From Actinomycetota bacterium (GTDB lineage: Bacteria > Actinomycetota > Actinomycetes > Actinomycetales > Kineosporiaceae): DNA of 32,267 nt. Position numbers and translations under genes: made by a program. The notes under the pieces were generated by a model. It made no database searches. It was not told where the DNA came from and saw only the letters and a list, made by a program, of their open reading frames with translations. Within the stretch, counting starts at the first letter, position 1, and every line of letters starts with the position of its first letter. Below, piece after piece: positions 4,618 to 23,068 of this stretch. Where the stretch lies: the NCBI GenBank assembly GCA_030837505.1, contig JAUPKJ010000018.1, positions 1 through 32,267 on the forward strand, written 5' to 3'.

Positions 4618-7275
4618 TCATCGAACGGTAGGGGAAGAAGCGCATCGATGAGCGGGAACGCCGTACAGGGTGGTCCGTTGCCGAGGAGTCCGGCCCAGGC
4701 CCGACACGATGGACTGCAGTTCCGTCTCGGTGCGGGCGGAGCCGTGCCGGGCCCCCGCCGTCCACGAGATCGTCTCCTCCATGAGGGTGCCTCCCAGGTC
4801 GTTGGCCCCGCCGCGGAGCATCGCCCGGGTTCCTTCCGTTCCCAGCTTCACCCAGGACGTCTGCACATTGGGAATCAGCCCGTGCAACAGGACCCGCGCC
4901 AGGGCGTGAACAAGGACATTCTCGCGCATCGTGGGCCCGGGACGACACAGACCCGCCAGATATATCGGCGTATTGTGGTGCACGAAGGGCAGCGGCACGA
5001 ACTCCGTGAAGGCCGCGGCGCGGCGCTCCAGGCTCTCGCGCTGGATGGTGGCCAGCAGGCGCAGGTGAGCGACCCAGTGCCGGGGCTCGTCCACGTGGCC
5101 GTACATCATGGTCGAGCTGGTGGGCAGTCCGGCGGCATGGGCGGCCGAGATCACCTCGACCCAGGTCGATGTCGGCAGTTTGCCCTTGGTGAGGACCCAG
5201 CGGACGTCGTCGTCCAGGATCTCCGCGGCCGTGCCGGGGATCGAGTCCACCCCGGCGGCCTTGACCTCCTGCAACCACTCCGACAACGACAGACCGGTCC
5301 GGGCCGCGCCGTTGATCACTTCCATGGGGCTGAAGGCATGCAGGTGGATCCCGGGAGCTGCGGCCCTGACCGTCCGGGCGAGGTCGAAGTACCCGTGGGC
5401 GGGCAGGTGGGGGTCGATCCCGCCCTGCATGCAGATCTCCGTCGCCCCCACCCGCTGCGCCTCCCGAACGCGATCGGCGACCTCGTCCAAGGACAGCCGG
5501 AGGGCATCGGGGTCGCGATGGCGCTGGGCGAAGGCGCAGAAACGGCACCCCGTGTAACAGACGTTGGTGAAGTTGATGTTCCGGTTGAGCACGTAGGTCA
5601 CGTCGTCCCCGCAGGTCTGCTGACGCAGACCGTCGGCCAGCTCGACGAGTGCTGCCAGGGCCGAGCCGCTCGCGGACGCCAGGGCGAGCGCTTGTTCCTC
5701 GGTGAGATCGGCGCTGCCGCGTTCTGCCCGTCGCAGGGCCTCGGCCGTCCCCGGATCGATCCTCCCGGGCGCCGTGACGTCACGGCGCGGCGATCCGGGC
5801 TCACCGCCCGACGACAGGGCTTCCTGCGCGCTCTGCACGGAGGACTCCGGCCCGCCCTGTTGCACGGGTGTGCCGTACACCCGTTCCCGCAGGACTTGCC
5901 AGTTGCCGTGGACCTCGTCGAAGTCCCGAAGGGTTCGTTCGGACTGTTCGGGTCTTTCGGGCTGTTCGGGTCGTTCTGGTCGTTCTGGTCGGCCGGGGAC
6001 GAGGGGCCGCAGGCCCCAGTGTCGGTCCGGTTCCCGCCAGGGCAGGCCGACGGGCACGGCGTCCGGCCTGGCCAGACCCGTCACGGGGTCGGCGAGGGCT
6101 CGCACGTGCCCGGCGACCCGTGGGTCCAGCCAGGGTTCACAGGCCCGGACGTACTCCGGGTGCACGGCGAGTCGCTCGACGAGTTCGAACCCCGCTTCCC
6201 CACTGATCCTGGCCAGTTCCTCCACCCGGGGCCAGGGGCGTTCGGGATTGACGTGGTCGTCGCTCACGGGGGAGATCCCTCCCCAGTCGTCCACGCCCGC
6301 GGCCAGGAACCCCGGCAGTTGCGCAGGATCGGACAGGTTCGGGGGAACCTGGATCCGGACGGACGTTCCCAGGACCAATCGGGCGACGGCGATGGTCGCC
6401 AGGTACTCAGCCGGGTCCGGGCCCTGTGCCGAACACAGGGCGGTGCCGGGTTTGGCCAGGAAGTTCTGCACGATGACTTCCTGAACGTGCCCGAACTGTC
6501 GTTCCAGACCACGGATCGCGAACAGCGAATCGGCCCTCTCGGCGAGGGTCTCACCGATCCCGACGAGGATTCCCGTGGTGAGCGGGACCGCATGCCGCCC
6601 GGCGTCCTGGAGCACCCGCAGCCTCACCGCAGGTTCTTTGTCCACAGAACCGTGGTGGGCAGCTCCGGGGGTCGTCCACAGGCGTTCGGACGTGGTCTCC
6701 AGCATCATTCCCAGAGAGGGGGCAACGGGTTTCAGACGGCCGATCTCCTCCCAGGACATCACCCCGGGGTTGATGTGGGGCAAAAGCCCTGTTTCCTGAA
6801 GAATCCTCCTGGCCAGCTCCTGCACGTAGTCGAGAGTGCCGGTGTGCCCCGCCTCCTCCAGCCAGAGGCGGGCCTGCGGCCAGCGGCTCTCCGGGCGGTC
6901 CCCGAGAGTCATCAGCACTTCCTTGCACCCGGCCCGCGCAGCCCTTTCGACGAGGTCCAGCACGTCGCCCGTCGACAGGAAAGGTGCCTGACCCGAGCGG
7001 CTCAGAGCCGTCGGCGTCGAGGTGAAGGTGCAGTAACGGCAGTGGTTCCGGCACAGGCGGGTCACGGGGACGAACACGTTGCGCGAGTAGGTGACGGTTC
7101 CCGGCCGCCCCGCCTCGGTCAACCCGACGTCCCGGACCGAACCGGCGATCCGGACCAACCGCTCCAGGTCCTTCCCACGGGCGTGCAGGAGGACCTCGGC
7201 CTCGGCCGGGTTCAGGGTCACGGCGTCGTCCGCCCGGCGCAGCGCCCGCCGCAGGGAGGACTCAGAGGGCATCAT
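4618..7275 (-). CDS. fbiC: FbiC, 7,8-didemethyl-8-hydroxy-5-deazariboflavin (Fo) synthase
   Basis: An 885-residue fusion of the two radical-SAM enzymes CofG (N-terminal half) and CofH (C-terminal half), which make Fo, the chromophore of coenzyme F420, from a pyrimidine intermediate and tyrosine. Each half has a CxxxCxxC cluster motif: CRNHCRYC at 75-82 and CYTGCRFC at about 569-576. The fused form is the actinobacterial one. The start is ATGATG at 7270-7275, where similarity begins; the frame opens further upstream without support and no strong ribosome site is seen. The linker between halves (about residues 429-446) carries six RPE-like triplets from a 9-bp tandem repeat. It is divergent from the CoA-transferase gene. 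Confidence 0.95.
5938..5991. repeat. Six 9-bp tandem repeats in the fbiC inter-domain linker
   Basis: Six consecutive 9-bp units of the form TTC(G/T)GGNCK, read on the minus strand as [18 protein letters not shown]. They fall between the CofG and CofH halves, where a flexible linker tolerates length change. Confidence 0.85.
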
Positions 7276-7504
7276 GCGGGCAATCCCACCACGCCGGCGT
7301 CCGTCGTAGGCGCCGGGCACAGGATCCCGTTCGCTACGGCCCCGACCGGGCCGGGTGTCCCCGGGCGTCCCCACCAGCCGTTGTCCGAAAAGACCACGTA
7401 TCAGGGCCCCGGGAATGTGACGATGACCACTACAGGACGGCGACAGGCCCGGCACCGGGACGTTCATCCCGGCCTCCGGCCGGGGGGACTGGCACGGTGG
7501 AGTC

Positions 7505-8731
7505 GTGAGGACCGTCGACATCGCCGAGTTCCAGTCCATCCTGGGCTCGCTGCCCCCTGACCCCCGAATCATCGCGTCGGGTAATTTCGCGACCCCGAAG
7601 ACTCTGCTGGCCGTTCTCGATGAGGCCCTGCCCCTCTTCACCCTGAACATGTTGAATGCCCAGCCCGGCATCCCGAACCGCGAGGGCATCACCCTGGAGA
7701 CCTCGTTCGTCGGCCCGGGGATGCGTAAGAACCCGCGCCTGAGGTACGTGCCTTCCCGCCTGTCGCTGGTGCCCCGGCTGTTCAAAACGACGTTGCCACC
7801 GGACGCCGTCATCATCCACACCTCCGCCCCCCACGAGGGCGCCGTCTCCCTGGGGGTGGAGACCAATGTGATGCCGGCTGCGATCGAGGCCGCCAAGGCC
7901 CGCGGCGGCGTCGTCATCGCCCAGATGAACCCGAAGATGCCGTACACCCTGGGCGATGCGGAGATCAAACTCGACGACATCGACTATGGGGTCGAGGTCG
8001 AGGAAGAACTGGCCACCCACCAGCCCCTCGTCATCGACGAGATCTCCGGCACGATCGGTGAGCTGGTCTCCGAGCGCGTCGTGGACGGGGCCACGATGCA
8101 GTTGGGCATCGGCGCCGTTCCCGACGCCGTGCTGCACGGCCTGCTCAAGCGGCGCGGCCTGCGGGTGTGGAGCGAGATGTTCAGCGACGGCGTGCTGGAA
8201 CTGGACGCCGCCGGTTCCCTGGACAAGGACTCCCGGCTCACCGCGTCCTTCATCTTCGGGACCCGCACCCTGTACGACTGGGTCCACCTCAACCCTCGCG
8301 TCCTGATGCTCCGGACGGAGACCACCAACGCCCCGGCGAACATCGCAGCGAATCCCAACATGGTCTCGGTGAACACCGCGATCCAGGTCGACCTGTTCGG
8401 CCAGGCCAACGCCTCGCGGATCAAGAGCCGGATCTACTCGGGCTTCGGGGGGCAGACCGACTTCATCGTCGGTGCCCTGCACTCCCCCGGCGGTCAGGCG
8501 ATCATGGCCCTGCGCTCGTGGCACCCCAAGGCGAACACCTCGACGATCGTTCCGATGATCGAGGAACCGATGACCTCGTTCCAGCACACCGCGGTCGTCA
8601 CCGAGAACGGTCTGGCCGAGGTCTACGGCCACGACGAGCGCACCCAGGCCAAGAACATCATCGAGAAGGCCGCCAACCCCAAGGTCCGTGAGGAGCTGAG
8701 GGAGGAAGCCCGTTCCATGGGTCTGGCCTGA
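7505..8731 (+). CDS. Acetyl-CoA hydrolase / CoA-transferase family protein
   Basis: A 408-residue cytoplasmic enzyme of the acetyl-CoA hydrolase/4-hydroxybutyrate CoA-transferase family, which moves CoA between carboxylic acids through a glutamyl-CoA intermediate. The family landmarks are GIGAVPDAV (201-209), the likely catalytic Glu224 in SEMFSDG, and GFGGQTDF (about 313-320) near the CoA site. Length is slightly short of the usual 430 or so but both halves are present. The start is GTG with GGTGGAG just upstream. The physiological acyl partner (acetate, succinate, butyrate or other) cannot be read from sequence, and no pathway genes adjoin. It is monocistronic, with a strong hairpin downstream. 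Confidence 0.88.
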
Positions 8732-15784: not shown

Positions 15785-15982
15785 ATGCCCAGTGCACTTT
15801 TGGATGAATCCAGCCCGCCTGCGGAGGCCTGGACCGGATCCCTGCCGTCATCCGATCGGGTGTCCCGTCAGAATCCGACCGAGACGACCGTCCGGGTCTG
15901 CGCTCCCTGCCCGGTACGGACGTCCCGTTCCGTTCTGCGGCGCCCGTCTGCTGCAAGGAAGGTAGAGGCGCGTCGTCCATGA
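15785..15982 (+). CDS. Possible 65-residue leader ORF upstream of the HelR-like gene
   Basis: ATG 15785 opens a 65-codon frame whose TGA overlaps the ATG of the next gene (ATGA), which would couple translation. The product is basic and Ser/Pro/Arg-rich with one CAPC motif (residues 41-44). Third-position GC is not as strongly biased as in true genes here, and there is no clear ribosome site, so it may be noise in a long leader. Confidence 0.25.
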   Translation: MPSALLDESSPPAEAWTGSLPSSDRVSRQNPTETTVRVCAPCPVRTSRSVLRRPSAARKVEARRP

Positions 15983-18213
15983 CAGCGTCAACTCAACGTT
16001 CCGAGAACCGCCCGCAGACCGATCCGATTCCCCCCGCCGACATCGACCCGGAGATCCGCGCCGAACAGGAGTTCCTGGCCCGGGCCCGGACGGCGCTCGC
16101 ACAGATGCACCGGGAGGCCACCGAGGTGGCCCCGGCGCTGCAGAGCTCCGAGGACTCCGACGAGATCTACCACAACACCGTCTATCGGATGACCCTTGCC
16201 CGCAGGGTCAAAGCTCTGGTGGACCTGCCTGATGTCCCCTTGTTCTTCGGACGTCTGAACTATGAGCCCGGCACTGTGTTCGAGGCCCGACAGACCGGGG
16301 TGGACCTGTCCGGGGTGGACCTGCCCCGGGCAGACCGCTCCGGTCAGAACGCGCCTCCCGAGACCATCGATCATCTGTACATCGGACGGCGGCACGTGCA
16401 CGACGAGGCCGGGGACCCCCTGGTCATCGACTGGCGCGCCGAGGTCGCGACGGCCTTCTACCGTGCGTCGCGCGTCGATCCACAGCAGATCCGCTCACGT
16501 CGGCGCTACGGGTTCTCCGACTCCGCCGATCTGACCGCCTACGAGGAGGAGATCCTCACGGGCGGTCCCGTCGTGCCCGGGGACGGCCTCGTTTCGGACA
16601 GCGGAGTTTCGGACAGCGGTGTTTCGGACGGACTTGTGGCGAACGGACTGCTCACCGCAGAGATCGAGAGACCTCGCAGCGGGCCGATGCGCGACATCGT
16701 CGCGACCATCCAGCCCGAGCAGGACGACCTGGTCCGCGCGCCCCTGGCTCCCTCGCTGTGCGTCCAGGGCGCTCCGGGGACCGGCAAGACGGCCGTGGGA
16801 CTGCACCGCCTCGCCTATCTGCTGTACAACGAGCCCGAACGGCTGGGGGCCGGGGTCGTCGTCCTCGGGCCGAACCGGTCCTTCCTGACCTACATCCGCA
16901 GGGTCCTGCCGGCCCTGGGCGAGGTGAACATCACCCAGACGACGACAGAGGGTCTGATCGGCCGCTCCTCCCGGGGACCGGAGACCGACGACCGCGTGGC
17001 CCGGCTCAAGGGTGAAGCCCGTCTGGCGAAGGTCCTGCACAGGGCGCTGTGGGCTCCCGTGGGACAGCAGTTCGACGGCCTGCTGTACGCCCAGGGGGCG
17101 TACCGATACCGCCTCGGGGCCGACGAGGTCGAACGGGCTCTCACGTCGTTGCGGAGCGGTCGCCGGTACGACGCCGGTCGAACGGCCCTGTCCCAGAGGC
17201 TGGCCCACCTCGTTCTGGTGCAGATGGAACAGCGCGGCATCGTCACCTGCGACCGGACCCAGAACGCCGTGGCCCGTTCACGCCCCGTCAAACAGCTGAT
17301 CGATCGTTTGTGGCCGAAACAAAATTCCGAACAGGTCCTGTTCCGGCTGCTGTCCGACGCCGAGTTCCTCGCCGAGATCGCCCAGGGGATCCTGACCGAC
17401 GAGGAACAGGCACTGCTGTTGTGGGACAAGCCGTTCCGATCGTGGCGATCGGCGAAATGGTCGACCGCGGACGTGGCCCTGCTGGACGAACTGGACGACC
17501 TGTTCGAACACGGTCGTTCCCTGTCCCACATCGTCATCGACGAGGCCCAGGACCTCAGCGCCATGCAGTGCCGGGCCGTGGGGCGCAGATGCGCGTCCGG
17601 GACGGTGACGGTCCTGGGCGACATCGCCCAGGGCACGACCCCGTGGGCGATGAACGACTGGTCGAGCCTGCTGGAGCATCTGGGCCACCCGCAGGCCCGC
17701 TTGGCGGTCCTGGAGCGCGGGTACCGCGTCCCCGGCCAGATCATCGACTTCGCGGCCAGGCTCCTGCCCGGGATCGCTCCCGGGTTGCAACCCCCTCAGT
17801 CGGTCCGTCGGGTTCCCGGCTCCCTGAGAGTGCTCCGGACCGGGCCGGAGGACCTGCCGCGCCGGGTCGTCGGGCTCTGTCGCGAACTGCTCGACTCCCC
17901 CGGTTCGGTCGGCGTGATCGCCGCCGACGCCGAGCTGCAGGACCACTACAGCGTTCTGAACGGCGCGGGCCTGCAGTGCACTCTGCTGGGCGAGTCGGAG
18001 GACAGCCTGGAAAGCAGCCGACTGGTCTGCGTCCCCGCCGGTCTGGCCAAGGGACTGGAGTTCGACACCGTTGTCGTCGTCGAGCCCGCCAGGATCGTCG
18101 CCGCGGAGTTCCACGGCACCCGTCGCCTCTACGTCGCCCTGACCCGTGCCGTCAGCACCCTGCACGTTCTGCACTGCGAGGACCTGCCCGAAGCGCTGTG
18201 CCGAGAGGGCTGA
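15979..18213 (+). CDS. helR: HelR/HelD-like RNA polymerase recycling motor ATPase
   Basis: A 744-residue superfamily-1 helicase-like ATPase. The N-terminal helical region (20-85) and PLFFGRL (87-93) precede LYIGRRHVHD (133-142) and IDWRAEV (150-156), which are typical of actinobacterial HelR. Walker A GAPGTGKT lies at 264-271, DEAQD near 520, and YVALTRA near the end. These proteins bind RNA polymerase, prise open its channels and remove stalled complexes or nucleic acid; some confer rifamycin tolerance. The start is ATG; the ribosome site is weak. Two 15-bp tandem repeats encode GVDLS/GVDLP (107-116) and VSDSG repeats (205-217) in loops. A 20-bp terminator hairpin follows. HelR versus generic HelD is judged by resemblance only. 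Confidence 0.88.
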   Translation: MTASTQRSENRPQTDPIPPADIDPEIRAEQEFLARARTALAQMHREATEVAPALQSSEDSDEIYHNTVYRMTLARRVKALVDLPDVPLFFGRLNYEPGTVFEARQTGVDLSGVDLPRADRSGQNAPPETIDHLYIGRRHVHDEAGDPLVIDWRAEVATAFYRASRVDPQQIRSRRRYGFSDSADLTAYEEEILTGGPVVPGDGLVSDSGVSDSGVSDGLVANGLLTAEIERPRSGPMRDIVATIQPEQDDLVRAPLAPSLCVQGAPGTGKTAVGLHRLAYLLYNEPERLGAGVVVLGPNRSFLTYIRRVLPALGEVNITQTTTEGLIGRSSRGPETDDRVARLKGEARLAKVLHRALWAPVGQQFDGLLYAQGAYRYRLGADEVERALTSLRSGRRYDAGRTALSQRLAHLVLVQMEQRGIVTCDRTQNAVARSRPVKQLIDRLWPKQNSEQVLFRLLSDAEFLAEIAQGILTDEEQALLLWDKPFRSWRSAKWSTADVALLDELDDLFEHGRSLSHIVIDEAQDLSAMQCRAVGRRCASGTVTVLGDIAQGTTPWAMNDWSSLLEHLGHPQARLAVLERGYRVPGQIIDFAARLLPGIAPGLQPPQSVRRVPGSLRVLRTGPEDLPRRVVGLCRELLDSPGSVGVIAADAELQDHYSVLNGAGLQCTLLGESEDSLESSRLVCVPAGLAKGLEFDTVVVVEPARIVAAEFHGTRRLYVALTRAVSTLHVLHCEDLPEALCREG
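16297..16326. repeat. 15-bp tandem repeat in the HelR-like gene (first)
   Basis: Two copies of GGGGTGGACCTGTCC / GGGGTGGACCTGCCC, giving GVDLS and GVDLP in the protein. They lie in an N-terminal loop before the ATPase core. Confidence 0.75.
16591..16630. repeat. 15-bp tandem repeat in the HelR-like gene (second)
   Basis: Units GTTTCGGACAGCGGA, GTTTCGGACAGCGGT and a partial GTTTCGGACG encode VSDSG, VSDSG, VSDG in a loop before Walker A. The core TTCGGAC matches other repeats in this window. Confidence 0.8.
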
Positions 18214-18256
18214 GAACAGGGCGCCGGACGCTCGGGGAGCGTCCGGCGCCCTGTTC
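18214..18256. terminator. Strong bidirectional terminator hairpin
   Basis: A perfect 20-bp stem with a GGG loop lies directly after the HelR-like stop. The stop codon of the convergent NifX-like gene overlaps the outer end of the stem. There is no U-run. Confidence 0.8.
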
Positions 18257-18602
18257 AGGCGGCCTGTTCCAGGAACCGTTCTAGGACCTGCCGTACGGTT
18301 CCGGCCTGCTCGGAGTGCACCTCGATCCCCGCGGCGGACAAGGCGTCGGAGGCCTTCGGGCCGCAGCGCCCCGTGAGCAGGACCGTCGCCCCCGTCGAGA
18401 CGAGCAGTTGTACCGAACGGACCCCCGCGCCACTGGGAGCTTCGCGGGAGGTGTTCGTCACGGTCCGGACCTGGGACGGGTCCAGGACGCCGCCCTGGAC
18501 CTCGACCACCACCAAGAAGGGACAGCGCCCGAACGCGGCCTGGACGGGGGCGTCGAGACCCTCGGCGTCCGCGGACACGGCAATCTTCACGGGGACGCTC
18601 AC
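18255..18602 (-). CDS. NifX/NifB-like (dinitrogenase cofactor family) protein 2
   Basis: A 115-residue single-domain protein of the NifX/MTH1175-like family, whose members carry or bind iron-molybdenum-type cofactors or related clusters. It starts KIAVSADAEGLDAPVQAAFGRC, where the FGRCPF segment matches the family FGRxxxF motif (Cys27), and continues to a LLTGRCGPKASDAL helix (Cys80), matching the family 'GxxGxxA' turn. Last gene of a three-gene operon, it starts at GTG overlapping the previous stop (GTGA). No nif structural genes are present, so a nitrogenase role is unlikely and the cargo is unknown. It is paralogous to the preceding gene. Confidence 0.82.
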   Translation of the reverse strand: MSVPVKIAVSADAEGLDAPVQAAFGRCPFLVVVEVQGGVLDPSQVRTVTNTSREAPSGAGVRSVQLLVSTGATVLLTGRCGPKASDALSAAGIEVHSEQAGTVRQVLERFLEQAA

Positions 18603-18937
18603 TTCTCGCAGAAGTTCGGGCTCGTCGACAGGTTCCCGGCGAGGTAGGCGTCCACGGCCGACGCCGGGTCGCCGGGCTCTGCCCCGACCACGACCTCGAT
18701 GCCCTGCTGGACGAGCATGTCCCGTGCCCGACCGCCCAGTCCCCCCGCGATGACAACGGTGACCCCCTGCTCCCCGAGCCAGGTGGGGAACACCCCGGGC
18801 TCGTGCCGGGGCGCGGGATGGTCGTTCCGCGAGGTGATGGCCCGCTGGGTGTCATCCACCTCGAACAGGGCGAAGTGGGTGCAGTGCCCGAAGTGCTGGC
18901 ACAGGGAACCGTCCGCAACCGGAAGGGCGATCCTCAT
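18599..18937 (-). CDS. NifX/NifB-like (dinitrogenase cofactor family) protein 1
   Basis: A 112-residue member of the same family as its neighbour. Residues 11-22 (SLCQHFGHCTHF) form the family metal/cofactor loop, with Cys13, His15, His18 and Cys19 as possible ligands. GGLGGRARDML (about 68-78) is the typical glycine turn and helix, and a final Cys110 lies in NFCEK. The start is ATG 18937 with GAGGAG 5 bases upstream; this start overlaps the stop of the fused ATPase gene (ATGA), and its own stop overlaps the next start. The operon context suggests it receives a cluster or metal cofactor from the ATPase. Confidence 0.85.
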   Translation of the reverse strand: MRIALPVADGSLCQHFGHCTHFALFEVDDTQRAITSRNDHPAPRHEPGVFPTWLGEQGVTVVIAGGLGGRARDMLVQQGIEVVVGAEPGDPASAVDAYLAGNLSTSPNFCEK

Positions 18938-20967
18938 GGTTTCTCCTCGTTCTCGATCCACCGGAGCACCTGTGTCCACAGGTCCCGGATGTCTTGGGCG
19001 GCGTGGCTGTCAGGCGCGTGTTCGACCACGCAGGTCCGGTCCAGGTGCGCCCGACGGACCGCCTCGTCGTACCGGACGGTCCCCAGGACGGGCAGACCAC
19101 GCCGGGTCACCTCGGCCAACAGCTCCTCTGCCATCCGAGGCGACAGATCCACCTTGTTGAGACACACGGCGGTCCTCACCCCCAGCCGGGCAGTCAGATC
19201 GGCGATCCTGCGCAGGTCGTGCAGACCGCTGCGGGTGGGCTCCGTGACCAGCAGCACGCGGTCGGCCCCCGTGGCAGCAGAGGTCGCCGGGCACCCGATC
19301 CCGGGAGGACCATCACCGATCAGCAGATCGGATCCCCGGACACGGCCGAGGTCCGCGGCCTGTCCGCGAACGAGTGACACGAGCTTGCCACTGTTGTGCC
19401 GTCCCGGGCGCAACCTGGCATGGACCATCGGACCGATGCCCGTTTCCGACAGACCCCATTCCCCACAGGGATCGTCGAACAGACAGGCTGCCCCGCTCGG
19501 ACACAGGTCCACGCACACCCCGCAGCCCTCGCACGCGATCGTGTCCACAGTCACAGGACCACCGGGTTCGCAGGACTCCCGCAGGGCATCGAAACGACAA
19601 GCGTCCAGACAAGCCCCGCAGCCCTCGCACAGAGCCGGATCGATCGACGCCGACTGCCCTCCGACGAACAGCCACCGTCCCCCGGGCCGCCCCGGCAGCA
19701 ACAGATGCAGGTTCGAGGCGTCCACATCGGCGTCCGCGAGCACGATCCGCGCCCTCGCCCCGCCCTGCCCGGCTTCCCCGTCGCCTCGCCCGCCGGGCGG
19801 AAGGACACGGTCGGCCCCGCCGGTGAGCGTTCGTGGACAGCGCACCGGATCGGCCAGGTGCGCGAGATACGCCAGGGAGGCGGTGACGGTGGTCTTCCCC
19901 GTCCCGCCCTTGCCGCTGAGCACGATGAGTTCCGGTGCCCGATCGTGCCCCGATCCGACATCGAGCCCCGGTCCGACGGCCCGCGCGGCAGCGACCAGGG
20001 CTGAGGGCCTCAGATCCGGCTCGGACCACGGGACGGGGACCGTGCCGGGTCCCCGCCCCTCCCTCAGGACGGGTCGGGAGGACGCCCCGGCGCCGGCGAT
20101 CTCCGCCAGACGCGAGGCCACCTGCAGGAGAGCGGGGGCAAGGGAAGGCTCTGTCTCCACAAGCAGCTCGCCGACCGCGCAGGCCCGCGCGATCCGCCGG
20201 CTGTGGGGAATCTCCAACAACAGTTCGATCCCGGCGCGCTCGCAGTGCGAGCGGACGTCGTCGTCCCCGGCCCCTGCTCGGTTGAGCACCGCGGCGTGGG
20301 GCAGGCCGATCTCGCGGACCACTTCCACGGCCAGATCAAGATCGTGCAGACCGCACGGCGTGGGCTCGACGACCAGCAGAACGACGTCGGCCCCGGAGAG
20401 AGTCGCGGTGAAGGGGCAGGCCGTGCCGGGAGGACCGTCGAGGATCGCCCAACCGTTCCCGGGCAACCGCCCGAGAACGGCTTTGATCACCTCGGGGCTC
20501 TCCTCCTGACCGACCTCCGTCCGGCCCTCGACGGTCCTCAGCGCCCCGGAAGAACCCACCAGGACCGTTCCGATCAGCTGTTCGATCTCGTGGAGGGCGG
20601 TCTGGGGACAATGCCGCACACAGGCCCCGCAGCCGTGACACAGATCGGGCAGGACCGTGGCACCGCCCGGAACCGGCAGAATCGCAGCGAAACGGCAGAT
20701 CGGAACGCAGTCGCCACAACCGATGCACTTCTCGCGGTCGATCCTGGCCCTGGGGACGAGGACCTCGTGCTCCGTCTCGATCCGGGGTCCGAGGAACAGG
20801 TGTCCGTTGGGGGCCTCGACGTCGCAGTCCGCGAAGGTGACCGGGGCGCCGGAGCCCTCGGCGAGCACACGGGCAAGGCTCGTGGCCACGGTGGTCTTCC
20901 CCGTGCCACCCTTGCCGCTGATCACGGCCACGCGGACGGGGGTACCCGGTCGGTCGGTGGGGACCAT
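18934..20967 (-). CDS. Fused double MinD-superfamily ATPase with two inserted ferredoxin domains
   Basis: A 677-residue soluble protein made of two homologous halves, each a MinD/Mrp-type ATPase with an inserted bacterial ferredoxin domain (COG1149-like). Half 1: deviant Walker A SGKGGTGKTT (17-26), cysteines 81/84/87/91 and 110/113/116/120, and DGPPGTACP (178-186). Half 2: SGKGGTGKTT (351-360), cysteines 447/450/453/457 and 479/482/485/489, and DGPPGIGCP (552-560). Four [4Fe-4S] sites are predicted. Related ATPases act in Fe-S or metal cofactor assembly; in anaerobes two such genes usually stand side by side rather than fused. The join is a Pro/Gly-rich linker (about 295-345). The start is ATG 20967 with GGGAAG upstream. 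It heads an operon with two NifX-like genes and is divergent from padR. Confidence 0.9.
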   Translation of the reverse strand: MVPTDRPGTPVRVAVISGKGGTGKTTVATSLARVLAEGSGAPVTFADCDVEAPNGHLFLGPRIETEHEVLVPRARIDREKCIGCGDCVPICRFAAILPVPGGATVLPDLCHGCGACVRHCPQTALHEIEQLIGTVLVGSSGALRTVEGRTEVGQEESPEVIKAVLGRLPGNGWAILDGPPGTACPFTATLSGADVVLLVVEPTPCGLHDLDLAVEVVREIGLPHAAVLNRAGAGDDDVRSHCERAGIELLLEIPHSRRIARACAVGELLVETEPSLAPALLQVASRLAEIAGAGASSRPVLREGRGPGTVPVPWSEPDLRPSALVAAARAVGPGLDVGSGHDRAPELIVLSGKGGTGKTTVTASLAYLAHLADPVRCPRTLTGGADRVLPPGGRGDGEAGQGGARARIVLADADVDASNLHLLLPGRPGGRWLFVGGQSASIDPALCEGCGACLDACRFDALRESCEPGGPVTVDTIACEGCGVCVDLCPSGAACLFDDPCGEWGLSETGIGPMVHARLRPGRHNSGKLVSLVRGQAADLGRVRGSDLLIGDGPPGIGCPATSAATGADRVLLVTEPTRSGLHDLRRIADLTARLGVRTAVCLNKVDLSPRMAEELLAEVTRRGLPVLGTVRYDEAVRRAHLDRTCVVEHAPDSHAAQDIRDLWTQVLRWIENEEKP

Positions 20968-21042
20968 ATTTCTTCCCGCTCCTGCCAGAATCGGTTCGGT
21001 GGCCGGCGGACGCCGGTGAAGTGGAGTGTCCAGCAACAGCTT

Positions 21043-21056
21043 AACGATATATCGTT
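21043..21056. promoter_or_regulatory. 14-bp palindrome, candidate PadR operator
   Basis: AACGATATATCGTT is a perfect palindrome in the 118-bp gap between the divergent PadR and ATPase genes, in an otherwise GC-rich region. TATAT-centred palindromes are common as PadR-family operators, and this one could also serve as the -10 of either promoter, so binding would silence both sides. The link to this PadR is inferred from position. Confidence 0.65.
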
Positions 21057-21085
21057 GACATGTCGCTGACTGGGAGGCGGGTTCT

Positions 21086-21763
21086 GTGACCGACACGAGC
21101 GGAACGGGACACCCTCGCCGCCCCCACGGACCCGGGGGTGCTCCCGAGCCACCCGCCGGCGAGCCACTCGACCAGGGTGTTTTCGCTCCGGGTCGGCACG
21201 GTCCGGTTCGATACGGTCCGGGGGCCCATGGCCACGGGTTGCGGCGCGGACGACGTATGGGCCGAGGCCGGGTCCGGGCCGCCCTGTTGGCCCTGCTCTG
21301 CGAACGACCGATGCACGGCTACGAGATGATCTCCGAGTTGGCAGAACGCACTGCGGGCACCTGGCGCCCCAGTCCAGGATCGATTTACCCGACGTTGCAG
21401 ATACTGCAGGACGAGGGGCTGGTGGAAGGGCGCGTCGAGGCCGGTCGGCGACTGTTCACCCTCACGGACGACGGCAGGCGGGCCGCGCCGTCCCCGGACG
21501 GTCCACGACCGTGGGAACAGGGGAACTGCGGCCGGTGCCCCCGCCCGGACCCCTGCGACACGGAGCTGAGGGACGCCGCGGCCCAGCTCCTCCTGGCCGT
21601 CGATCAGCTCCTCGACGCCGGTACCTCCGAGCAGAAGGTCCGCGCGCTCCCCCACCTCACGGCCGCCCGGCAGGCGATCTATCTCGCCCTCGCCGACGCC
21701 GTTCCTCCCGACACCGATCTGTCCGACACCGGCCCGCCTCCCGGTACCGCCTCGCCCGGGTGA
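21086..21763 (+). CDS. PadR-family transcriptional regulator with a Cys motif
   Basis: A 225-residue regulator. A disordered Gly/Pro/His/Arg-rich head (1-62) precedes the PadR winged helix (63-130), recognisable by LLALLCERPMHGYEM, SPGSIYPTLQILQDEGLVE and RRLFTLTDDGRR. A linker containing Cys148, Cys151 and Cys157 (C-x2-C-x5-C) follows, then a helical dimerisation region (161-203) and an acidic tail. The three cysteines and the His-rich head could bind a metal or Fe-S cluster, which would fit control of the divergent Fe-S ATPase operon; this is inference. The start is GTG with GGGAGG upstream. The palindrome at 21043-21056 is its likely operator. Confidence 0.88.
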   Translation: MTDTSGTGHPRRPHGPGGAPEPPAGEPLDQGVFAPGRHGPVRYGPGAHGHGLRRGRRMGRGRVRAALLALLCERPMHGYEMISELAERTAGTWRPSPGSIYPTLQILQDEGLVEGRVEAGRRLFTLTDDGRRAAPSPDGPRPWEQGNCGRCPRPDPCDTELRDAAAQLLLAVDQLLDAGTSEQKVRALPHLTAARQAIYLALADAVPPDTDLSDTGPPPGTASPG

Positions 21764-21785: not shown

Positions 21786-22925
21786 TCACTCGTCCTCGGG
21801 GAACGAGTCGGAAGGCAGGCCGAGAGTCCCCAGGGCGAGCGCCTGCAGGTCGATCGGGCCTGTGGGGTCGCCGGGAACACGCTCGGAGTCCGGGATCAGA
21901 GGTTCCACGGAAGCTTTGGCGTGAAGGCGTTCGACATGTTCGCGCAGAACGGCGGCGATATCGGGGGCCAGCGGGTGGATGAGGGACAGCTCGAAGGAGT
22001 CCTCCGCGGCATCCTCGAGGTTCGCCGTCGACAGCCAGGTCCCGTCCCCGTCCAGCACGGCGAGTTTCAGGTGCATCCTCCCGATCGCCCCCGTCCGGTC
22101 TCCCGGGTAGTAACGCACGTCCACCCCGGCCTGCCGCAGCAGGGGAACGGCGTCCCAGGGCTGGTTGCTCTGATCGCCGTCGACGACTCCGACGACGCGC
22201 ACTCCCCTGTCCACAGCCTGCGACAGGGCGTTCAGGGTTTTGCTGTCGGTGGTGATCCGGCAGAAGGCGAAACAGAGTTCACGCCGGCAGCTGTGGACGG
22301 CTTCGACGAACGTCTGTCTGGCCAGGGAACCGGGCCCGAGGTCGAGGATCGCGTTCGGACCATTGTCGGTCCTGATCTCGATCCGCCGGGCCGGGATGCT
22401 GGTCTCTCCCAGGAACAGCGGGTGGACCGCCTCCTCGACCGCGGCGGCAACCGTCGGGTCCTCGATCACCGCACACCAGTTGTAGTTCCGGTCCAGGGAA
22501 CCCGGTGTCAGGTAGGCCGAGGTGACCAGGACTTTCTCGAGCCCGTCCCGGCCGGTGAGGACGATGTTGGCGTGCCGGGGGCCGACGAAGGAGTTCAGAC
22601 GGACGTCGACGCTCGAACGGAGCAGGGCTCCCAGGCAGCGGCGGGCATCGGCGTGCACCCCGGCGCCGCGGGACCACAGTCCGGATTCGGGCACGGGGGC
22701 TGGTTCTCGGACGTAGCTGGACTCCATCAGGGCACGTGCGTCGGCACCGGCCCGGCAGCAGGCGGCGATCCTGCGGACGATCTCCGGATCGGTCACTTTC
22801 CGGGTCACGACGGTCAGGTGCCGGATCTGGTCGAGCTGGTCGTACAGAACCTGACGCAATTGGTCGGGGGCGGCCCGCACCTGCGGTGAGAGACAAACCT
22901 CCGTTGTTCCGTGTACGACGGGCAT
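21786..22925 (-). CDS. Phospholipase D-like domain protein
   Basis: A 379-residue protein of the phospholipase D superfamily without signal peptide or membrane span. The C-terminal half has a complete HKD motif (His285-x-Lys287-x4-Asp292) followed by GTWLSTAN (295-302). In the first half the equivalent site is degenerate: His118-Ala-Asn120 with no Asp. The N-terminal 110 residues look like a helical regulatory domain (DQLRQVLYDQLDQIRHLTVV...), which resembles the TrmB-like sensor helices seen before PLD domains. One active site per chain fits a homodimeric enzyme or a ligand-binding role. The start is ATG 22925 with GGGGGA upstream; ATG 22967, overlapping a 34-residue ORF, is possible. Confidence 0.75.
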   Translation of the reverse strand: MPVVHGTTEVCLSPQVRAAPDQLRQVLYDQLDQIRHLTVVTRKVTDPEIVRRIAACCRAGADARALMESSYVREPAPVPESGLWSRGAGVHADARRCLGALLRSSVDVRLNSFVGPRHANIVLTGRDGLEKVLVTSAYLTPGSLDRNYNWCAVIEDPTVAAAVEEAVHPLFLGETSIPARRIEIRTDNGPNAILDLGPGSLARQTFVEAVHSCRRELCFAFCRITTDSKTLNALSQAVDRGVRVVGVVDGDQSNQPWDAVPLLRQAGVDVRYYPGDRTGAIGRMHLKLAVLDGDGTWLSTANLEDAAEDSFELSLIHPLAPDIAAVLREHVERLHAKASVEPLIPDSERVPGDPTGPIDLQALALGTLGLPSDSFPEDE

Positions 22926-22963
22926 CCGCCGTCCCCCTTCCGCCCCGTTCTCGGGTCCGGGTG

Positions 22964-23068
22964 TCATCGGCTGTCCGCAAAACCCTCGACGGTCCACAGC
23001 ACCCTTGGGTCACAACACCCGGTCACAACACCCCGGGTCACGAGCATATTGCTATCAATCAGTTTCAT
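22964..23068 (-). CDS. Possible 34-residue ORF upstream of the PLD-like gene
   Basis: ATG 23066-23068 opens MKLIDSNMLVTRGVVTGCCD and 14 more residues. Its TGA overlaps an upstream candidate ATG of the PLD-like gene (ATGA). The middle is encoded by the 13-bp tandem repeats, and no ribosome site is seen. It may be a leader peptide, or chance. Confidence 0.25.
   Translation of the reverse strand: MKLIDSNMLVTRGVVTGCCDPRVLWTVEGFADSR
23008..23041. repeat. 13-bp direct repeats upstream of the PLD-like gene
   Basis: GGTCACAACACCC occurs twice in perfect tandem (23008-23020, 23021-23033), with a third partial GGGTCAC at 23035-23041. An AT-rich island of about 45 bp follows (23041-23085), unusual for this genome and a likely promoter region. 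The repeats could be regulator sites. Confidence 0.7.

Follow-up and report, generated by a model that had tools for sequence, protein, structure and literature searches.

A candidate ORP-type iron-sulfur module with two ferredoxin-containing ATPases in one chain in an actinobacterium

In a 32,267-nucleotide stretch of DNA from an actinobacterium of the family Kineosporiaceae (assembly GCA_030837505.1, contig JAUPKJ010000018.1; the whole stretch is called the window here), one reading frame encodes two ATPases, followed by genes for two small NifX-family proteins. This gene set is known from anaerobes, and its fused form and actinobacterial host are unusual. What might such a unit do, and how did its two ATPases come to be a single protein?

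The fused ATPase and its gene unit

The fused ATPase, NifX1 and NifX2 are encoded by a three-gene unit on the minus strand at 18255-20967. The start of the ATPase is an ATG at 20967 with AGGAG 11 nt upstream, and a longer in-frame alternative begins at a GTG at 21096. The features of the locus, in window coordinates, are as follows.

18934-20967, minus: fused ATPase (Orp3-Orp4-type fusion), 677 aa; two MinD/NifH-fold ATPases, each with an inserted 2x[4Fe-4S] ferredoxin domain
20080-20967, minus: N-terminal ATPase half, residues ~1-296; P-loop 18-25, DCDVE 47-51, eight ferredoxin Cys 81-120, switch II DGPPGTAC 177-184
19948-20067, minus: linker, residues 301-340; predicted disordered (pLDDT < 50), position-3 GC coding-like
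18937-19947, minus: C-terminal ATPase half, residues 341-677; P-loop 352-359, disordered insert 375-403, eight ferredoxin Cys 447-489, switch II DGPPGIGC 552-559
18599-18937, minus: NifX1, 112 aa, Nitro_FeMo-Co/Di-Nase protein with a CxHFGHC motif; PF02579 E 2e-20, resembles the MrpORP C-terminal domain
18255-18602, minus: NifX2, 115 aa, ORP-like Nitro_FeMo-Co protein; PF02579 E 9e-17
21086-21763, plus: PadR-family regulator; PF03551 E 9e-20
21031-21068: inverted repeat between the divergent genes, candidate PadR operator; perfect core AACGATATATCGTT at 21043-21056
18214-18256: perfect 20-bp hairpin, probable shared terminator between the convergent HelR-like gene and NifX2

An earlier note on this DNA had described a 677-residue protein with two MinD-type ATPases, inserted ferredoxins and 16 cysteines, two NifX-like carriers joined by ATGA and GTGA overlaps, and a PadR gene diverging across a palindrome, and each of these was found as described. 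Pfam places CbiA and Fer4 domains in both halves of the ATPase, with two GKGGTGKT P-loops (residues 18 and 352), two DGPPGxxC Walker B/switch II motifs (177 and 552) and ferredoxin cysteines at 81/84/87/91, 110/113/116/120, 447/450/453/457 and 479/482/485/489. The P-loop, DxD, Walker B and eight ferredoxin cysteines are intact in each half, and the N and C halves are 34% identical. Both are ferredoxin-inserted MinD-type ATPases of the COG1149 type, i.e., with a KGGxGKT deviant Walker A and a dicluster ferredoxin set into a MinD fold; a paper search turned up no literature on COG1149. Here, a single chain holds two paralogous ferredoxin-containing ATPases that most relatives make as separate proteins.

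The earlier note had named a sequencing error that joined two frames as a possible source of this protein, and an artefact of that kind, or a contaminant contig, could be suspected in a draft genome of 434 contigs (4.5 Mb, 3.3% contamination) when the split form is usual elsewhere. Joined frames are unlikely because the frame is coding throughout, the 40-aa disordered linker included: position-3 GC is 0.80-0.87 across residues 271-360, stops close one of the two other frames, and what joins the halves is a stretch of ~40 additional residues, not a 1-nt change. Contamination was rejected on two grounds. The HelR-like neighbour of the module shares 53-55% identity with proteins from the same family and order, and the tetranucleotide profile of the module contig agrees with those of other contigs, including the ones that carry nif and anf (r 0.66-0.83, compared with 0.22-0.42 for foreign loci). 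We therefore consider an artefact highly improbable.

An AlphaFold2 model of the whole chain (mean pLDDT 85.7, pTM 0.85) comprises two well-folded halves and a disordered linker. Its input was alignment A4, with five fused sequences plus C-only rows; alignments A1 and A5, holding all separate N and C sequences, were left out, as both halves were stacked on one half in them. This model, together with the co-purification of Desulfovibrio vulgaris Orp3 with its partners described below, makes the intramolecular pair of ATP sites envisaged in the earlier note plausible. When superposed on known structures, the C half matched MinD, ApbC and NifH with Z scores of 22-25, the best being MinD (Z 25). 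That match, and a role for ORP proteins in cell division proposed as a hypothesis (PMC4672049), would fit a positioning system: MinD-like ATPases, sensing redox state through their ferredoxin domains, would set the place of a cargo or of the division site. Such a role appears very unlikely, since the conserved Fe-S ligands and the NifX-family partners indicate metalloclusters and the division role is just a hypothesis in that publication.

The hairpin beyond NifX2 has a predicted RNA fold of -48.9 kcal/mol (z -7.8). The HelR/HelD-like RNA polymerase recycling ATPase that converges on it (15979-18213) scores below the NCBIfam cut-offs. At the other end, the inverted repeat spans 38 bp with 19-nt arms that are 79% complementary. 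Its core occurs once in the 4.5-Mb assembly; perfect palindromes of at least 14 bp are not rare in the window, with 7 observed versus ~4.4 per mononucleotide shuffle, and a scan for sigma-70-like promoters found nothing. From the position of these elements, we infer that PadR controls the unit, probably as a repressor bound at the palindrome. Of 51 loci of at least 6 kb, 18 have a PadR gene close to the module, and PadR is a recurring neighbour in Anaerolineae, with only 20-29% identity between those PadRs and the one in the window. The window PadR carries a C-terminal CxxC...C stretch, NCGRCPRPDPC, which is not found in the Anaerolineae PadRs near the module and is possibly a metal or redox sensor.

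Relatives and the origin of the fusion

A scan of 84,980 genomes with six peptide patterns yielded 80 loci, and ~60 of these encode the two halves together or a large part of one half. Metagenome-assembled anaerobes account for nearly all module loci (Anaerolineae, Lentisphaerota, Acidobacteriota, Thermodesulfobacteriota, Clostridia and others). The same four domains are found, as separate genes and at ~35-45% identity, in anaerobes of many phyla, and two adjacent ATPase genes are the normal form, with a 4-nt overlap in 38 of 61 pairs; the earlier note was thus right to expect separate neighbouring ATPases with NifX-like partners in anaerobes. The adjacent-pair loci of Anaerolineae and other anaerobes (L034-L085) share with the window all four domains, their close linkage, the conserved cysteines and often a nearby PadR. 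They differ in having two ATPase genes instead of one and in gene order, which in relatives is usually NifX2-ATPaseN-ATPaseC-NifX1, compared to fused-NifX1-NifX2 here.

As to other fused homologues, for which the earlier note had proposed a search, the fusion is not unique. A single fused ATPase frame is also present in four Lentisphaerota/Victivallales loci (L030-L033), where it encodes 603-607 aa and lies between NifX2 and NifX1. L030 and L031 run in the order ORP-like protein, fused ATPase, Di-Nase protein and then Mrp/NBP35, an arrangement unlike that of the window and with an Mrp/NBP35 gene following NifX1. Within the host's class, by contrast, only 1 of 395 sampled genomes has the module, and it is the host's own. 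Across the phylum, 49 of 396 genomes have it, and all carriers but the host lie outside the class. AU tests on trees of a fusion shared with Lentisphaerota gave p values of 0.76 and 0.61 for the single halves and 0.056 for both together. Whether a single common event produced these fusions is not settled: the single halves do not reject it, and the two halves together nearly do. An origin of the module from a plasmid was rejected, as just three distant matches to plasmid records were obtained, all from anaerobes.

Fused forms exist elsewhere; interest in this one is raised by its host and by the conserved switch II cysteines. A natural single-chain form argues for the two ATPases being an obligate pair, and it offers a simple protein for biochemistry.

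Likeness to the ORP complex and a proposed mechanism

The Orange Protein (ORP) complex of D. vulgaris comprises Orp3, Orp4, Orp5, Orp8 and Orp9/MrpORP; Orp3 and Orp4 have two [4Fe-4S] motifs each, Orp3 is systematically purified together with Orp4 and Orp8, and MrpORP passes its cluster to Orp3, Orp4 and Orp8 (PMC6345978). As judged by this published description, the window unit is alike in having a pair of related ATPases, each with two [4Fe-4S] motifs, and an ORP-type Di-Nase protein (Orp8; here NifX2) with a second Di-Nase domain of the MrpORP type (here NifX1). The ATPases are separate in D. vulgaris and fused here; the second Di-Nase domain is joined to an Mrp domain there, whereas NifX1 stands alone with no Mrp found; and control is by sigma54 there, compared to a presumed PadR and an actinobacterial host here.

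The two small proteins also point toward ORP. Both contain the Nitro_FeMo-Co domain (PF02579) of NifX/NafY, so the earlier note's reading of them as NifX-like holds at the level of the family. Their closest likenesses lie elsewhere: NifX1, the small protein that best matches its relatives (50-52% identity to Lentisphaerota homologues), matches the Di-Nase part of NF041136 (MrpORP) with E 3e-34, and the best solved match of NifX2 is the Orange Protein 2wfb (E 1e-16). With the NifX of a nif operon from another actinobacterial family, the NifX1 profile scored 24 bits and the NifX2 profile gave no match. In sequence, NifX1 and NifX2 thus resemble ORP and the Di-Nase domain of MrpORP more closely than they do NifX. 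Neither linkage to nif genes nor kinship with the nif-operon NifX was found, with nif, anf and the module on contigs C68, C62 and C358, respectively.

Because NifX2 matches 2wfb and the unit has features of the D. vulgaris complex (PMC6345978), we take it to be an ORP-type module in which Orp3 and Orp4 are fused. We keep it apart from the ORP complex proper, since a counterpart of MrpORP was not found in the window and the likeness to Orp3 and Orp4 is drawn from descriptions. A further mark of that complex is a Mo-Cu-S cluster on the ORP-type protein. Several observations count against the favored reading: NifX1 ends in CEK, while most relatives end in CDH or similar; the presumed regulator is PadR, unlike the sigma54 of D. 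vulgaris; and the window lacks an Mrp/NBP35 gene, as the assembly lacks a full-length Mrp/ApbC, when 17 of 17 relatives have exactly one. The missing Mrp is either a real loss or a gap in the assembly, and a gap may explain it.

The ATPase itself was compared with Mrp/NBP35/ApbC and NifH, with which it has in common a deviant Walker A P-loop fold and Fe-S chemistry. It differs from them in its inserted ferredoxins, in having one cysteine at the NifH Cys132 position and in lacking the CxxC that in Mrp/NBP35 bridges a [4Fe-4S] cluster C-terminal to Walker B, its CxxC motifs being confined to the ferredoxin inserts. Among ~74 aligned sequences, all 16 ferredoxin cysteines are kept in at least 96%, and so are two additional switch II cysteines, Cys184 (96%) and Cys559 (100%). 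Both lie at +7 from the Walker B Asp, a spacing equal to that of NifH Cys132. In the N half, hhalign aligns Cys184 with NifH Cys132; for the C-half switch II, neither HMMER nor hhalign gave an alignment with NifH. NifH-type reductases use two interface cysteines per subunit (Cys97 and Cys132) for a bridging [4Fe-4S]. That both halves keep a cysteine at the Cys132 position suggests a site for a cluster or metal between them. In the ORP module, widespread among anaerobes, these residues would point to a cluster site beyond the published descriptions consulted.

The same residues could instead mark a NifH-like reductase, in which ATP hydrolysis controls the flow of low-potential electrons from the ferredoxin clusters to a cluster on a NifX-family protein, or to another enzyme, and the clusters stay put. 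NifH and BchL are among the best fold matches (Z 22-24), the additional conserved cysteine sits at the NifH Cys132 place, and four [4Fe-4S] sites would fit electron supply. We nevertheless regard this as unlikely: the window has no NifDK-like catalytic partner, NifH Cys97 has no established counterpart, and the partners are NifX-family proteins, which are known cluster carriers.

Instead, we favor, at a probability of roughly 0.6, an ORP-type variant that works as an ATP-driven device for assembling, holding or passing Fe-S, perhaps Mo/Cu-S, clusters; the combination of an Fe-S ATPase with NifX-family proteins supports the earlier note's assignment of a cofactor or metallocluster assembly or transfer unit. 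In this device, the two halves would form an intramolecular ATP sandwich, and the four [4Fe-4S] clusters of the ferredoxin domains would supply electrons or iron-sulfur. Cys184 and Cys559 may together hold a cluster or metal where the halves meet, at a site that would open and close with the ATP cycle, so that a cluster is handed to or from NifX1 and NifX2.

The nitrogenase genes of the host

The absence of nif genes reported in the earlier note is true of the window and not of the genome. Contig C68 carries a Mo-nitrogenase operon with nifH, D, K, E, N and B and the start of a nifV-like gene (L146, G000:C68, 1-10764), with nifN and nifK scoring below the NCBIfam cut-offs, nifK by 0.1 bit. Contig C62 carries anfH, anfD, anfG and anfK of an Fe-only nitrogenase (L154, G000:C62, 304-4802), and anfD (1040 bits), anfG and anfK exceed their cut-offs. 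Among the 395 genomes of the class, anfD is found in the host only, and nifH is found in the host and in 25 genomes, all of one other family. For nif, the passages of a 2021 survey that deal with Actinobacteria name only Frankia, Propionibacterium and unclassified ones (PMC8399215). Predicted to fix nitrogen, and carrying genes for Mo- and for Fe-only nitrogenase as well as a metallocluster module of anaerobe type, this host makes a good system for asking what the module is for.

One answer would be a nitrogenase accessory, with NifX1 and NifX2 replacing a missing NifX and helping to deliver FeMo-co or FeFe-co precursors to the two nitrogenases. Besides the presence of nifHDKENB and anfHDGK in the same genome, it is favored by the lack of NifX in the host nif operon (PF02579 matches in the genome are those of the window's two proteins and NifB's own domain), while a nif cluster from another actinobacterial family has a NifX-like ORF (L163:7884-8315). 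Distribution speaks against the module as a general accessory, and that candidate was rejected: 48 of 50 module-bearing records show no nifH, and the module is absent from all 25 other genomes of the class that have nifH. With its profiles matching NifX weakly or not at all and its location on neither the nif nor the anf contig, an accessory role in this host is, in our estimate, distinctly unlikely. A combined reading, which we put forward as a long shot, is that an ORP-type module was recruited for cofactor delivery in this dinitrogen-fixing host: its double ATPase, one chain with a NifH-like cluster between the halves at Cys184/Cys559, would load two ORP-like carriers, and these would take the place of NifX and possibly of the missing Mrp.

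Several other genes around these loci were observed. Beside the nif operon on C68, a single ORF joins ModA and ModB of molybdate transport, and the anf operon adjoins a pair that resembles the anti-phage IteA/IteS and scores below cut-offs (L154 6157-9696). In the window, 21786-22997 encodes a phospholipase-D-like protein weakly similar to DISARM DrmC (51 bits versus a cut-off of 133), and a 1120-aa ORF at 4618-7980 has two Radical_SAM stretches and a CofH C-terminal region, as in FbiC of F420 synthesis, for which it is presumably long.
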